DNA of 64,000 bases, taken from positions 663,709 to 727,708 of the forward strand of contig ML976989.1 of the NCBI GenBank assembly GCA_010015675.1, written 5' to 3'. Within the stretch, counting starts at the first letter, position 1; each line of letters starts with the position of its first letter. The stretch is from Byssothecium circinans. Lineage: Eukaryota; Ascomycota; Dothideomycetes; Pleosporales; Massarinaceae. Shown piece after piece: positions 30,009-39,224 of this stretch. Made by a program: the position numbers and the translations under genes. The notes beneath the pieces were generated by a model. The model saw only the letters and a list, made by a program, of their open reading frames with translations. It was not told the origin of the DNA and searched no databases.

Positions 30009-33000
30009 TCAAGGATCCTCATAATCCAACTGTCCGTCAAACAAATCCGTGACGACCTTCGTCATTGGCTCAGACAGAGTTGCTTCATCGTCAACCTCAC
30101 CACCAAACATCCTTAGCCACTGGGCCCGCAGCGCTCTCTCATGAGCGTCTTTTTGTTGTTGTTGCGCCTCGGATTCCGAAAGCTCTTTGACACGTGGTGC
30201 AGGCGGAGGTGGAGGAGGTACCTTAGTGTCGGTGCCAGGTTGTGAAAAATAGGCGTCTTCCTGTGCTTCGTTGACCTTCGCTTCATTGACCTTGTCTTTT
30301 CCCTTCTTGTCACGTCTCCTAATCTCAGCCGTCCTCTCCGCTAACCTCCTCACCTCTTTACTCGTCAACTGCTGATGCTTCACGAAAACGGTATCTTTAC
30401 CCCTCTCCTCATAATTTTCCGTGATCTCCGCGACAGCCTCCGGGCTAACAAGTCTCCGGTCGATCATCGTATACCCCGCAGATTGACCAAGAATATCGCG
30501 GTAGGTGAAGTAGTCGTCAACATTAATCTCGTCAAGGTTGATGACAGCTTCAAATGGCGACGAAGGACGGGAAGTAGGCGTATTCGCTCTCGGTCTCGTT
30601 GGGGTAGGAGCTTGCGCAAGGTCGACGGACGATAGTGTTGTGCGCAGGTTATCAAGTTCTGATGTCGATGGAGGAAGTTGTGTGTCCGGCACGGATTCCT
30701 TTCCAACCAGTTTCCAGGCTTCTTCCGTCGCAACCCACAAACCATACTTATACCTGCCTTCAACTTGGTGTACCAGACCCAAAGTCTGGAGTTTCATGAG
30801 AGCTCCAATTACTGTGGAAGTCTCCACGCCAAGTGCCACAGCTAGCGCATGCTCACGAAGGGCATGCTCCTGGGGGAGGTGATGCGCCTCCAACCCGGTT
30901 CTGACGCTTGGAGCGAATTGGCCAACATAGGAGCGCGCCAAAGACGCGCTCTGTGCCTGTGCCATTGCGGAAGACATAGATGGACGCCTCGGGCCGAAGG
31001 CCATTGTACTCGCTGCAGGTGTACTAGAGGTAACAGATTGAGGCGTCAATGATATGAGATTGGTGAGAATCATCGACTCCAATTCCGATATCGATTCTTT
31101 CGGAGGTGCCATTGTGCCCGCAACATCGTCTCTCCCAGGTGCCAAGACCCACCTACCCTTACTCCCCTCGATTCTTCTCACGGAACCGGAAACCTCTAGC
31201 ACAGATAATGCTGTTTTCAAGGACTCTGGGGCGAGTGCAAGTCCCTGAGCAAGAATATCCTCGTGTATTCCATTTGTTTCCCAAGGAAGACCTCGCATGA
31301 CGTCAAGTACGCGGGTTGCTGGATCCAAATTCGATGTCGCCGTTGCGCGCCAAATCCCATCGCTACCAGTCACACGCCTGATCAAGTACCCTTTCTGGAG
31401 TTCCGTGATGACGCTCGTCATGGCTGCAATGGACACATGGAACCTTTCCATGAGTGTTTTCTCATGAACTCCATCACGATTGGATGGGTTTCGTAGATAG
31501 GAGAGGACTTGTGAGGCCAAGTTGGAAATGTCGTCACGAGCATTCTCTGGATATTGTTGACCCGGGCCAAAGTCGGTGGCATTTCTTGCATGGCCGCACA
31601 CAGAGCATCGCATATCGGTGAGATCTGTGCCTTGGTGGCAGACTCCGCAAATCCACATGTCGTTGGGAACGGTCAATGTGTCTTCTGTGGAGCTCGGGGG
31701 GTGGCTTTGTTTGTCATCTTCCCCTGGTTTCGATTGCTTGGAGGCAGAGATGTCTCCCTGTTGCGGGTCGCTTGTCGGGGCTGAAGGCAGATTAAGCCAA
31801 TGTGACACTCCGCTTTTGGATGATAAGGTCGCAGGGTCGTCTTGTGTACTGCCCATTGCACTACTCTTGGCAGAGTGCCTAAGCCTCTCTATCAGTATAT
31901 CCCGGGTTATCTGACTCCTGCACCTCAACAACACCTTCCCATCAGGTCTAAAAGCCGACTCATCTAGAGTCTCCGCTTCGTCAATGACAAGTTCCGTACC
32001 GATACGTTCCTCGATAGACACCTCAGGTGTAAGTCCCAGGGCGAGAAGCGGGTTCTGAGTCTCCGTCTGACGTTCATTGACGAAGGCAAAGAGTTTACCG
32101 GGGTATATGTGTAGCGAAGCTTCATGTCGTTGGAGAGCTCTCCATTCCTCAAGTATGTCGCTCCAAGTGCACACATACGCGAGAGCCTTTTCAGGTTCCT
32201 CGGGGAGGGTCATTGAAGGGCGTATCATGCCTAGAAGCGGCGTATCTTTCTGGTGTTCTGCTAGGCCGCGCCATGGCAGATCCGGACTGACAAATGGCGT
32301 CTTACTCCCTTCAGCCCTGGAACTCATTTCAACCGTGGAGAGAAGTTCCAAGCCCAGCAAATAGACGTTCGGGACCTCAACTCGATCCCTCCTAGCTTCC
32401 ACACCCTGAGGGACCGAAAACACCGTTTGATCAGCATCCATATGAAGCAGTTGCAGAACACGTTGAGCGGCCGTATATCCGTTTTCACAGAGACTTCCAC
32501 CTTCCGTATACACGCCATTAACACTGGCACAAGTTGTGCAACTCTGAGCGTGGCTTTCGAAGATTTCCAAAGCAACTTCCTCTTCCTGACTGAGGGGGCG
32601 TTTGGCTAAATTGGCTGGTTGTTTACCGGATCGGAAGGCTTCGCCGACGGAGCCGAAGAGATCAGCGGGCAGCGCTTTGTTGACATTGTTGTCGACGGGC
32701 GGGAAGTAGACTGGGAGAACGGATTTGTATGTGAGTTCGTCACTTGATCCGAAGACGCAGAAGACAATCTTCTCAATGGGGCTGCTAGAGTCCATGGATT
32801 CTAAGAAACGTTTGACCTCTTCCATTGCCAACGAGGCACAGTCGCGTCTTGGATCTATCATATATTAGCAAAGCGTGTGTTTAGCGGAAGTGGTTGATTT
32901 GGACTCACAGTTCAGCATACCGGTGCCAATACTAGGTATCGCTATTGAAGTTGCCTTGAGTGAGACGGCTTTCTGTAGAATCTCTCGGTAGATCTGGCGC

Positions 33001-36000
33001 AACACATCCTTGCTGGTTTTACGATATGTGTCCGGTGGAACAGCGTGCAACACGTGTTTGGCTGGAAGCTGATATGCTCCGGTGAGCTTAACATCGCCCT
33101 CATTACACATGCCGAATGCTGTGAACTCCTCTTGCATGCCAAGGCCGGCTTTCCTGAAAACAGTATGATCAAGCCAGCCCATGCCTGAGAACCCGATGTC
33201 TGTAGAGTTGACGATTCTGCGCTGTCGTTAGGAAAATCCTGTTTGCATCGTGAAGTACGTACACATCTACTTCGACTTGGGTGATATCGTTCCTTAGAAG
33301 ACACACGATATGATTGAATCGAGTTGAAGGAATTGAGTTTGTGGGTTTTTGCTCGAGCTCTCGTAGTTGGTATAGTCGCGAAACAGACGGTATTTGATGA
33401 AGCTTGACGACTTCAGTACGCCCAGGTGCCGGTGTGTCACGTTGAAATTCTCTCGTGTACATGACTTCTTCAAAGTGATCGCGAACCCCTTGCTCTCCTC
33501 TGCCAGTGGTTTTGACGAGCCAGCTTCCGAGACGGACGGATATTGTGGTCATTTCGTGAGGTACGTCAAAATTCCTGGAATTCAGTCAGTGATTTGGACC
33601 TCATGCATATCAAGATATCCTAATGAGTGGGACTAGATATGCTTACCGGACGATAACATTCTCCAAGCTCTGCGCAAACTCCTGGCAAAGGCTCAAGAGG
33701 CCTTCAACATGTATACCTTGGCTCGTCCGCATGTAGCTATTGTATTTGTCCCAGATAGCTTGATTGCTCTGCTGACCCAAAGCTGCTTTGCCCTCTGCTA
33801 CGTCCGTGATTTCCGCGATACTGCCCGTGACGGCTTGCATGACTGTACACAGCAAATTGAGATGCTCGACAGCCTGTTTGTCCAAGATGGCTCTCGGCGA
33901 GAGAAGCATTATTCCAAGAGATCCTAGTATGCGTTTTGTTCCATTGAGATATTCTATGACTTTACCTGGGAAAGCTGCTGCATGCCTCCGAAATTCAGCG
34001 AGCTCTGCAGCTACTTTACCAAGCTGGTTGGAAGTATCCGACACTTGTTTGCTTAGGGCTGCATTGTTCGTGCCTGATTCGTCTGCGGCGGCACTCTCAA
34101 GGTCTCCATCTACTGGAGGAAAGTAGATCGGGAGGAGGTTCCTGTAGGCCTCTTCGTCGACGCTGCTGAACACGCAAAACACAATCTTGTGGAAAAGGTG
34201 CGACGGGTGCGCATCGAGGAAGCCACGGGTTTCTCGGAGAGCGATCCGTGCCGCTTCCCACGTGGGGAAGCCACAGCCTCCAGAACCAAGTGATGGAAAT
34301 GCCACAGTGCGGAAACTACGCTCCAGGGCCAGTTTGAGAGCACTTCTGTAACATTCGGCTAGCATTTTGAACTGGTGGGTTGCTTGACTTCGGCTGTAGT
34401 TTGGCCTCGCAGTATGTATGACCCACCTACAAGGGAGTTTATAGCCAGCAGTGACAATTGCCTGACCAGTGCCAATTTTAGGGTGAGCTCGGCATTCCCT
34501 TCGCATGTCTGGTCCAGCGGCTTTATGTATGATATTGTTGAGAGTGAAGTCAGGTTGGGAAACCTCGAGGGAGCGATTCGCGCTATTGACAATGGCATCC
34601 ACGTCAAGTCGAGTAATATCGTGGTTGTAGAATGCAATACAATCATTGTAGGCACTTTTGGGAGCGTAGGTCGCGTCTTGTCGCAACAAATGCCCAGTTT
34701 TGTAAAGCGAGCGAAGTGTTGGGAGCGCGAAAGCCGTATATATTGGCCACAAGTGATCAGCTTCTCTTCCTCTAGATCCATAGAAGATGGTTGATGATGT
34801 GTCGCTGTTGGCACCCTCATCCTCCGAGACAGGGTCACTTGGAGAGCTCGAAGCCCTGTTGGTTTTCCTCGGTTGGCGAAAACTGAAGTTTAGCTTGGTT
34901 CCGTATTCTTCATCTCGAATCAAGTCGACGTCCGGGTACCGGGTTCTGTCAAATATGTTGATTGCATTGAGAACAGATGCCTCCTCTTTGAAACTTACGT
35001 TGCCTACCCATCGGCCATTCGCTTCAGCGTAACAAGTCACTGCACCAGCATTGGGCAGTGACCTGAGGTACACCACGAATGAATCCACTGCAGCTGGATC
35101 ATATTTGTCTTCAGATACGATGTCTTCCGAGGCAGGTCCAGTGATCGCACTCGCCGTTACTGGTGGCTGTGCAAACAACATTTCAAGCCTTTCCTGAGTG
35201 GCATTAGGGACCTCGCTCAAAAGCTCCGCCGATAAGTTGTGCTCTGCATTAGACTGGTGACTTCTAGCAAGGTCCGCAGGCAGGCCCTCTGTTGCTTCTA
35301 GTGATGTTGTGTTTTTTATTACTGAGCGCTGGAGGTCCTCGTGTATGTCGTCATCGAAATCACTAATGAATGACACACCGCTCAAGTTTTGCGAACCAGT
35401 CCTGTCAGTGCTCCCTCTTGATGCTTGCGAACTTGCTCCATCTGAGTCGTTGTGCGAACTCGTAGGCAAAGCGAAGGCGGCAATCCTTTCTAGATGATTG
35501 GCGATGTGGTTCCCGATCTTGTGAATATCGGAAGGAGCGTGGCAGATGGGGCAAGTGCGCAAGTCTACGGTGGTGGTTTCGCCGACTTTGACGATGCTGT
35601 CCAGTTGGCTTTCGGGAAAGCTGTCACTATGTTCTCGGCGAAAATGGTCACGTAGACCTGCTGCTGAGGTGAAAATAGCCTCAGAGTGTTCGGGACATCT
35701 CCAAACTTTGCGATGACTAGCTTCGTGCTCAGTCCATTGGCGACGGCTTGTAAAAAGTTGGTCCGGCATGTCACAATCCAGATACGTGCAGACATATGGT
35801 TGCAGGTCTTGAAGTACGTGTGTTCTACACAAGTGTTAGCAAGGTATTTAGAGAACCAAGGCTCAGACAGTGATGTCACTTGAAGAACCTACTTCCATGA
35901 TCGTTGATTAGCATATCTACTAGGGCAAATGATGTAGCAAATGGGACACTCAAAGTCTTTCTCACCATCTGCAGCTTTGGGAGGAGGCGGGAGTTGGATT

Positions 36001-37034
36001 GAGCGTCCAGATGCATCGCGCACAGTCGTTGCATAACTGGTCACTGACTTGGAGTCGACAATATCATCCAATGATTGATGGTGATACGTCACTTCTGTAC
36101 CGGAAAGCATCGTCTTGCCCGTTTTTTGACTTGGTGCCTCCTTGATAATAACTTGTTCTGTTACTCCTGGCTGCACTTCGAGAGTATCGTGTAGGTTCAT
36201 CTGTTCAGGACGTTCGACCTGTGGCTGAATGGGCGCGTCTTCTGGAATGGTTGACACGCCTAGCTTGTCTCGATGTCGTTTCCAATATTTGAATTGGCGT
36301 CTTCGAAGGGTGACTGCACGAGCAAGGCGGTGGATAAGAGCCTCATCTTTCTCAATGTCATTAGCACCGGCATACGGTGTGCGGAGATGTCGAACAAGCT
36401 CCCAGGTGTGCTGGAGATCGAACGCGGCATATTGTTCCAAGATATCGATCTGAGTCTCAGGATCTTTTGGAGCGTAGGATGCTGCTTTCAGTGACCTGGA
36501 ACGGATGGTGGGTTGTCGAATTCGGACCGATAGCTTGTAGAGATTGTCAATAATATCGACGAACTCGCGAAAGCGCATCTCCAGTTCCGTCTTTGGTGCT
36601 CCAGGCTCGTCTTCGTCCTCATCTTCACTGAAGAAGTCATCATTCTCAACCTCATCCTCATCGGTCTCGTCCGGTTTCTGTTGTTTCTCATAAGGCAAGC
36701 GATTACCAGACACGATATCCAAAGCTGCGACCATGTTAACTTAAGAGCTTTTGACTTATCACGTGGTCGTACCAGCCTCGAGGTTTTCTTTTAGCTCAGC
36801 CAGAAGCTTCAGGGTATTGCTGGAAAGGAGTGGGGAGTCGCGAAGTCGGTAGTCCAGAGAAGAATGGCCTTTTTGTAACGCCCCTATATTTCCACACCAA
36901 ACTCTGAATCTGCCGATTTCATCTTGAAGAGCCTCATAGTCCAGTGCATGATCGGAGTCGCCAGTGGTGATGGCAGTGGTGAGGTTTAGGAAAGCTCGCA
37001 CATTCGCCGCCGTTGCTATCCTGATGGCCGACAT
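30009..37034 (-). CDS. Giant zinc-finger / double macro-domain / winged-helix protein, 2,245 aa
   Basis: Six exons (36773-37034, 35893-36724, 33647-35824, 33263-33574, 32909-33216, 30009-32854) join in phase through five introns of 46-72 bp. Residues 1-300 form a fungal helical region. AcuF-like zinc fingers span about 345-485 (C347, C350, C377, C382). About 612-680 is RRM-like. Macro domain 1 is about 759-935 (DITRLDVDAIVNSANRSLE, PSLGSGGCGFP). A helical linker runs 952-1091. Macro domain 2 is about 1170-1350 (DITQVEVDVIVNSTD, PSIGTGMLNYP). A Cys-rich segment is at 1387-1425. A RanBP2-type finger is at C1700, C1703, C1714 and C1717. Winged-helix-like segments lie near 1738-1802, 1809-1872 and 1940-2010. 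The C-terminus is charged. Macro domains bind ADP-ribose or remove it from proteins. No ADP-ribosyltransferase domain is seen. Individual domains are fungal-typical, but I know of no described protein with this order. Confidence 0.82.
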
Positions 37035-37426: not shown

Positions 37427-39224
37427 ATGTCTGGTGTTGAAGTTGCAGGTCTCGTTCTTGGGTGCTTGCCCATAATCATCCAAGGTATGTTGAACTGGTT
37501 CGCTCCAGCAAACACAAGCTCGAGAGCTGCGGATTGACCAAATGCCAGCGATAGAATCCTACAACGAAGGGTTGGACCCTATGAAGAGCTTCCTACGATG
37601 GGAAAGGGAGTTACCAGCACTTATTCGAAAGCTCAGAAATCAACATGTCCATTATTCGCAGACATTACGTATCCTACTCGAGCCCATCACGACCGAATTC
37701 GAGCTCGCTGAGATGCTTTCGGGGGAAAGACAACTGTGGAAGGAGAAGGACATGGAATTAAAGCTACAGGACAAGTTGCAGGACTCGTACAATGCATATC
37801 AAAGCACAATCACGGATATAGAACGGATAACGAGGAAGATTGCGAGCAAGCTGGATCTGGAGAGAGCGACTGAGCTCTCGCGGAATGATCTCGAGGCTTT
37901 GATTGTCGCCAACCCCAAGAAGAACGATAAGTTCGAATTCCGGAAACGCGTCAAATTTGGCATGTCCAAGAAGGGCATAAAGGCATTACTAGAAGAGTTG
38001 GATGATTGCAACAAGGAGCTGGAACGTTTCACGGAGAAAAGTGAAAAGATTGAAACAGTCCGCAAGTCAGTCAAGCCATCGTTTGCAAATAGACTGCAGC
38101 GTATCCAGAAGTACGCTACCGGCCTGCATGAGACACTTTCAGTTTGCTTCTCCTGTGCTTGCAAGTCCAGTCACAGTACGAATTTGCGGCTTGATCAACG
38201 AGGCACCCTGTTCGCGTCAGGGAAGAAGGCTAACCAGACTCCCAAAACTTGCTTCAATGTATCATTTTCAAGCATCTCTGATGACGATACTCACCTCTGG
38301 AACTGGCAAGCAGCCGAAATCGTTGTAGAGGAAGAGGAAGATGATTATTTCGAATTGCAGCCCGGGACCAAACCTCGAATGACAAAATCAGTCAGCTTTG
38401 GGAAACAACCGCCACCGCCTTATTCGCCGGAGGATCCCGCCATCGTCCGGACCCCATCATTAGACGAGGTCAAGGATTTATGTGCGTCAATACAGCAGCT
38501 CTACAAGAACTCAGACTGCATCGGGTTTCTTTTTGACACGAAAAGCAAACTTCGCGGCGCCTACCCGGTGAAAAATTTAAGCACCAAGCCATATGCGGCC
38601 GGTTTCGTCACTCTAGAGGAGCTTCTCAACCGACCTCCCCTCGTGAACGGACGCCCAGCGAAGCTTAGCAAGAAGGAGCGATATAGCCTGGCTCTGACCT
38701 TGGCGAGTAGTACTCTACAGCTCAATGCCACTCCATGGTTTCCGTCGGATCAATGGGGCGCAAAAGATATCATGTTCCACCGTACGTGTACAGGTCACCG
38801 TCTATTAAATATCGACCATCCCTACATCACCCCCAAGCAGGTCCACCTCTCGAAGACTCTGACAAACGGACAAATACCAAAAGCTCGCGGCTTTCAGAAT
38901 AAGAACACTGTCCTCCTCGCGCTGGCAGTCGCTCTCCTGGAACTCTACTTCGGCATGAGTGCCGAGCAGCATCGGAAACTGGAGCACTCTGAACCGTTCA
39001 CTTCAAATCCCTGGACTCTCTGCGCGATGGCTTATGATTGGGCTGAAGAAGAGCAGGAGAACCTGTCAGCGGCTTTTTCAACAGCCATCAATCACTGTCT
39101 TCGCTGCTTTTCAGATCCAAGCGCCAGCCTGAGCGATCCCGGCTTCCTCCAGGCGGCTGTTGAGTGCATTGTCCTTCCGTTACAGGACGAACTGGATCAG
39201 TTCCTCGGCAAGAATGGGCCGTAA
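37427..39224 (+). CDS. HeLo-like N-terminal / DUF7580 fungal protein
   Basis: Two exons (37427-37484 and 37549-39224) encode 577 aa. The opening, MSGVEVAGLVLGCLPIIIQ, followed by helical YNEGLDPMKSFLRWERELP, is the fungal HeLo-like/SesA-type N-terminal pattern: a hydrophobic first helix spliced to a coiled helical bundle. The middle has ACKSSHSTNLRL and an acidic, Pro-rich linker. The C-terminal half (GFVTLEELL, SKKERYSLALTLASSTLQL, ELYFGMSAEQHRKLE) is DUF7580. Related HeLo-type domains act as membrane-perturbing cell-death effectors in heterokaryon incompatibility, but that activity is not established for DUF7580 proteins. It is divergent from the macro-domain gene. Confidence 0.82.

Follow-up and report, generated by a model that had tools for sequence, protein, structure and literature searches.

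A 64,000-nucleotide stretch of the genome of Byssothecium circinans (Pleosporales, Massarinaceae), here called the window (positions 663709-727708 of contig C13 of the 48.4-Mb assembly), carries the minus-strand gene CC80DRAFT_443757, which encodes a protein of 2,245 amino acids with two macrodomains. We found this protein to belong to a conserved and real family that was not found described in the literature searched, and whose conserved core consists of N-terminal helices, AcuF-type zinc fingers, a first macrodomain (macro1), a helical region, a second macrodomain (macro2), an H-C-C-C domain and an EVH1/RanBD-like domain. An earlier, first-pass annotation of this DNA had stated that no ADP-ribosyltransferase is present, and indeed the PARP catalytic domain (PF00644) gave no match in CC80DRAFT_443757 up to E 1 and none in 23 family members at E<=0.01. 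We tentatively favour the reading that the protein acts as a scaffold that reads ADP-ribose and itself has no transferase, probably nuclear or nucleoprotein-associated, and we hold the prospects of this reading to be close to even. Support comes chiefly from the macrodomains: macro2 has kept most of its expected pocket residues, and macro1 has lost both the aspartate and the GGGG loop of MacroD.

Gene model and protein family

Splicing of six minus-strand exons (37034-36773, 36724-35893, 35824-33647, 33574-33263, 33216-32909 and 32854-30009) across five GT..AG introns of 48, 68, 72, 46 and 54 nucleotides gives one frame without internal stop, as the first-pass annotation had proposed, and the product is letter-for-letter identical to a public B. 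circinans "hypothetical protein" (P0001). The five introns are predicted from the sequence and agree with the public record; one might suppose instead that the frame wrongly joins two or more separate genes. We reject this very improbable reading because the public model is identical and the domain order is conserved, with macro1 preceding macro2 in one protein in all 121 members where both were resolved (in the remaining four of 125 rows the macro1 match fell on macro2, and these were removed from the macro1 counts). The alignment of many members also extends from residue 1 across macro2.

The first search for relatives gave 101 matches among 7,987 scored candidates, comprising CC80DRAFT_443757, 99 relatives and one mollusc PARP14-like protein. 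A second search, with a profile of 13 members, gave 136 matches among 7,996, the best 120 of which added 25 proteins. The orthologue search that had been suggested for this gene thereby yielded a family of 125 proteins including CC80DRAFT_443757, several of them incomplete at their ends. The named sources were recognised as Pleosporales or close Dothideomycetes. Taxonomy records place Zopfia in Dothideomycetes incertae sedis and both Delitschia and Byssothecium in Pleosporales; the placement of the remainder is presumed. Apart from the mollusc protein, no member outside the Dothideomycetes was recognised among the named matches listed from the roughly 8,000 candidates scored per search. Lophium mytilinum (Mytilinidiales), present in the database, was absent among the macro matches listed by a search of limited sensitivity.

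Conservation is uneven along the protein. Where aligned with CC80DRAFT_443757, 22 relatives are 67% identical over residues 1-100, 69% over residues 132-245, 68% over the zinc fingers, 51% over macro1 and 64% over macro2; the values are 31% for the helical region 950-1090, 39% for the H-C-C-C domain and 28% for the EVH1-like domain. Past residue 1640 identity drops to 13-28%, a level at which the alignment means little, and the winged helices stand at 15-19%. By BLAST, which overlooks diverged copies, the H-C-C-C domain is present in 112 of the 125 proteins (self counted throughout), the EVH1-like domain in 60, the C-terminal domain in 45, winged helices 1 and 2 in 9 and 5, a RanBP2 finger in 2, and the cyclin-derived insert and the tail in 1 each. 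Pfam at E<=0.01 found PH_24 in 18 and RPA_C in 13 of 23 members, and because of the latter number, winged helices of some kind must be commoner than BLAST shows. The full domain order put forward in the first-pass annotation is thus not constant across the family, given the rarity of the RanBP2 finger and the poor conservation past residue 1640.

The two macrodomains

The claim of two macrodomains was borne out by Pfam macro matches to two stretches of the protein (3.2e-49), and for macro1 by fold match as well as by sequence. In the alignment, nothing in macro1 corresponds to the GGGGVD stretch of MacroD1, and glycine is nowhere the commonest family residue at positions 785-796. The MacroD aspartate is lost in 119 of the 121 true macro1 rows, the position being occupied by N in 78, H in 38, D in 2 and other residues in 3. 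On these grounds we read macro1 as a putatively degenerate site. Its loop is three residues longer than that of MacroD1 and, by family counts, has no conserved Cys/His set; a zinc-dependent (SirTM-linked) macrodomain was ruled out for macro1, since the loop has no zinc-binding motif.

Macro2 is the better conserved of the two. Its GMG-x-LD loop and GTG phosphate loop are kept and most of the expected pocket residues are present, with D1187 retained in 124 of the 125 proteins, G1206 in 121, G1208 in 124, D1211 in 118, G1292 in 124 and G1294 in 123. A loss of the macro2 aspartate, suggested by a single relative (P0004), was overturned by this D1211 count. From this pattern we read macro2 as a probable ADP-ribose binder. 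Taken alone, macro2 has MACROD1 as its best match (1.5e-29), and it departs from the hydrolases at two places. The second Asn position is Asp in 121 proteins and Asn in 4, and the phosphate loop is followed by Leu in 108 and Asn in 107, giving GTGMLNYP, which recalls GTGNLGFP in macrodomain 2 (MD2) of PARP14, rather than the STG-x-Y/F-G of MacroD. In MacroD2, according to a review, a loop glycine and Asn92 orient the substrate, Asn92 shielding the 2''-OH (PMC7050489); in our reading of the alignment, Asn92 would correspond to the second Asn position of macro2. For kinship of macro1 with macro2 the tree gave support of 45/19, too low to decide either way. It neither shows kinship of macro2 with PARP14-type macrodomains nor rejects it, the joint clade having a p-value of 0.53 in the approximately unbiased test.

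Likely writers, a likely eraser and AcuF paralogues in the genome

PARP catalytic domains on two other contigs and a stand-alone MacroD suggest that likely writers and a likely eraser of ADP-ribose are encoded elsewhere in the genome. A PARP catalytic domain lies in two stretches on contig C6, beside a region that looks like BRCT to us, and a second, shorter match lies on contig C5 (1323586-1323855). The MacroD, on contig C23, has an intact GGGGVD loop. The C6 and C5 proteins are likely to be the writers and the C23 protein the eraser. A further macro protein, on contig C17, we take from its resemblance to be of the ADP-ribose-1''-phosphatase type. PARG (PF05028) had no match in the genome; control genomes were likewise without a match, so nothing is concluded from this.

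The front of CC80DRAFT_443757 is shared more widely. The AcuF-type zinc fingers named in the first-pass annotation agree with a precomputed match to PF26082, presumably the AcuF model, and their Cys/His ligand columns are invariant in a 23-member alignment. Matches to AcuF-type paralogues occur on ten contigs, C13 included, and the N-terminal region is partly common to such paralogues. Three of the four that were fetched carry other rear modules in the same open frame, namely PAH and PHD (C5), SH3 (C49) and C2H2 (C43); in the fourth, on C7, Pfam matched nothing at E<=0.001. PHD and PAH are chromatin-type modules. Because three of the four carry differing modules behind the AcuF head, the comparison suggests that the AcuF front may be a common platform whose rear modules can be exchanged. 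We found a single copy of the full architecture in this genome, and among the AcuF-type proteins found here, which are alike in their front part, only CC80DRAFT_443757 joins macrodomains to it. The AcuF-headed paralogues with PHD and PAH repeats and with SH3 domains, each in one open frame, lie at L032 1-4332 (minus strand) and L030 743-5368 (minus strand), respectively.

Further domains of the protein

Behind the zinc fingers lies a small alpha/beta domain for which an RRM-like fold had been proposed. We consider this assignment weak, because Pfam gave no RRM match in 23 members at E<=0.01 (nor any KH match) and because the first RRM strand is missing from the order predicted by AlphaFold2 (alpha-beta-beta-alpha-beta-beta); the fold-match lists were dominated by macro1 and barely probed this domain or the helical region 950-1090.

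The rear of the protein holds three domains beyond those listed in the first-pass annotation. In the H-C-C-C domain, H1399, C1403, C1406 and C1420 are invariant in the 23-member alignment; it has no match in the Pfam library used, and a small protein on contig C29 (L028) is its paralogue. The EVH1-like domain resembles PH_24/EVH1-like and Ran-binding domains in fold, with 6-15% identity in the listed rows; Ran binding is not implied. In one relative (P0003) several EVH1-like stretches stand in tandem at about residues 1540-2308. The third, a conserved C-terminal domain, is probably PF26118.

For the proposed RanBP2 finger, the cysteine spacing (C-x2-C-x10-C-x2-C with a leading W) fits, but no Pfam zf-RanBP match was listed up to E 1; its other carrier is a Periconia protein (P0007), and it resembles a small paralogous protein on contig C12. 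Three winged helices had been claimed as well. The first two score above their Pfam cut-offs and appear in the model as clear H-H-H-E-E units, mostly with block pLDDT (predicted local distance difference test) values of 87-95, but the third falls below its cut-off and is less certain (blocks 74-87, first helix about 32). The top Foldseek match for the winged helices, an RNA polymerase III chain (8iue_P, 1.2e-5), was dropped, having a template modelling score of 0.25 to the target and a root-mean-square deviation of 16.6. Single members among the 23 scanned have Pfam matches to Myb or MIT, and precomputed matches give TPR for P0011 and PF00172, which we take to be Zn2Cys6, for P0060.

A probably captured piece of a cyclin gene

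Within the winged-helix part, a segment of a PHO85-type cyclin gene is present as an in-frame copy that agrees with the gene on contig C64 (L018 1504-1679) at 162 of 176 nucleotides (92%). The insert, 58 codons and two bases long, is sharply bounded and is read in the frame of the cyclin gene; fourteen codons differ between the two, eight with an amino-acid replacement. The segment is present in all of the best 120 of 2,117 cyclin matches but in only one of the 125 family proteins, so copying most likely ran from the cyclin gene into CC80DRAFT_443757. The insert lies where winged helix 3 begins and seems to separate the first helix of that domain from the remainder, which would probably split the domain. 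We are not sure of this, because the insert and the first helix have low model confidence and the GntR match (1949-1997) starts within the last residues of the insert.

Interpretation

If CC80DRAFT_443757 is a reader scaffold, ADP-ribose written by a separate PARP would be bound by macro2, macro1 would perhaps bind it weakly or dock a partner, nucleic acid might be contacted by the zinc fingers and winged helices, and the EVH1/RanBD-like domain might bind a proline-rich or similar partner, with the protein as one of a set of AcuF-headed proteins with differing rear modules. The first-pass annotation had inferred a reader or eraser of ADP-ribose. A reader beside nucleic-acid-type modules fits our data, and erasing seems less likely because macro1 has lost its catalytic loop and macro2 is without some hydrolase features, others being kept. 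Several points weigh against this interpretation. Loss of the macro1 aspartate does not prove inactivity, since active viral MacroD homologues without it are reported, and it is not found in all hydrolases, according to the review cited above (PMC7050489). Hydrolysis by macro2 may also occur, because its aspartate and two loop glycines are kept. Folds of the winged-helix and EVH1-like kinds also mediate contacts between proteins, and the low identity of the winged helices disfavours a conserved nucleic-acid target there.

An eraser, with macro2 actively hydrolysing mono-ADP-ribosyl groups, the other domains targeting it and macro1 as docking site, would suit the MACROD1 match of macro2 and the residues it retains in most members. 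We consider it unlikely, given the replacement of the 2''-OH-shielding Asn by Asp, a phosphate loop (GTGMLNY) unlike that of MacroD, and the canonical MacroD already encoded in the genome. Somewhat less likely still is an immune or allorecognition-type protein whose conserved front is a signalling platform and whose fast-changing tail is under conflict. The mosaic, poorly conserved tail would agree with this, as would the head-to-head neighbour (37497-39221, plus strand), a DUF7580 protein, if DUF7580 is indeed tied to NLR-like proteins; the single full-architecture copy found, the 67-69% identity of the front and the lack of any nucleotide-switch domain among the Pfam matches of CC80DRAFT_443757 and the 23 members scanned speak against it. 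The macrodomains could also bind free ADP-ribose or sirtuin-made O-acetyl-ADP-ribose and tune a transcription complex, acting as a metabolite sensor in the manner proposed for macroH2A, an explanation that we regard as improbable.

MacroD1/MacroD2 and GDAP2 differ in having the catalytic loop and aspartate that macro1 lacks, in the conserved Asn that is Asp in macro2, and in their surrounding domains. PARP14 and PARP9 are likewise very large proteins that pair several tandem macrodomains with modules of nucleic-acid type, and two papers describe MD2 and MD3 of PARP14 as binders without hydrolase activity (PMC13224862, PMC10499325), MD1 being active (PMC10499325). The family differs from them in having no ART domain and, by profile, no RRM or KH. 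The macroPARP resemblance noted in the first-pass annotation therefore stands as an analogy, not as shown kinship: the protein is not a macroPARP, though it might act much as a portion of one does. More speculatively, and with distinctly less confidence than in the reader function itself, Pleosporales may have evolved a PARP-less counterpart of the animal macroPARP reader, in which an AcuF-headed chromatin or nucleoprotein platform bears macrodomains in tandem, an EVH1-like site for partners and a tail whose modules keep changing, here with the captured cyclin piece.

Our literature searches on fungal macrodomains, ADP-ribosylation, AcuF/C2H2 and winged helices found no title on this family among those listed, and one on domain shuffling and partial duplication was without result. 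PMC4245714 deals with PARPs, PARGs and MacroDs of fungi and, in the portions available, not with this architecture. Work on fungal ADP-ribose signalling, as far as these sources extend, has centred on PARPs, PARGs and stand-alone hydrolases, and a conserved large tandem-macrodomain protein without transferase would offer a way to approach the fungal readers of this mark. What the shared front does can be tested through the modular AcuF series (macro, PHD and PAH, SH3), and the sharply bounded cyclin fragment is a clear example of coding sequence moving, in the likely direction given above, into a gene unrelated to its source.

Features of CC80DRAFT_443757, with positions in the window
Feature	Residues	Position	Strand	Basis
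Whole gene, six exons	2,245 codons + stop	30009..37034	-	splicing; identical public protein
N-terminal helical region	1-245	36252..37034	-	67%/69% identity; "helical" is the first-pass annotation's word
AcuF-type zinc fingers	340-485	35464..35969	-	PF26082 precomputed for P0001
Small alpha/beta domain (RRM-like in first pass)	606-682	34873..35103	-	AlphaFold2, block pLDDT 84-97
Macro1	731-940	34099..34728	-	MacroD fold; Gly-rich loop and Asp lost
Helical region, five predicted helices	950-1090	33649..34071	-	AlphaFold2; aligned in family
Macro2, spanning introns 4 and 5	1165-1350	32697..33354	-	sequence matches; 64% identity
H-x3-C-x2-C...C domain	1380-1497	32256..32609	-	invariant ligands; model, block pLDDT 83-98
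EVH1/RanBD-like (PH_24) domain	1514-1632	31851..32207	-	PH_24 profile and fold
RanBP2-like zinc finger	1695-1722	31581..31664	-	Cys spacing
Winged helix 1	1738-1801	31344..31535	-	RPA_C 31.2 bits (cut-off 22.6); model
Winged helix 2	1809-1868	31143..31322	-	DprA_WH 24.2 bits (cut-off 22.9); model
Winged helix 3, apparently interrupted	1886-2013	30708..31091	-	GntR 22.5 bits (below cut-off 27), residues 1949-1997; model
In-frame copy from PHO85-type cyclin gene, 176 bp	from 1900	30874..31049	-	nucleotide identity
C-terminal domain	about 2061-2165	30252..30566	-	BLAST 45/125; precomputed PF26118 presence/absence
C-terminal tail	2203-2245	30009..30140	-	likeness to small protein on contig C21

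Lastly, no structured RNAs or tRNAs were reported in the window, and it is possible that CC80DRAFT_443757 and its DUF7580 neighbour have a promoter in common. The C-terminal tail resembles the C-terminal end of the small protein on contig C21 (L026 1168-1641), with 74% amino-acid identity over 43 residues and 71% nucleotide identity, and both end in DYEDP followed by the stop.

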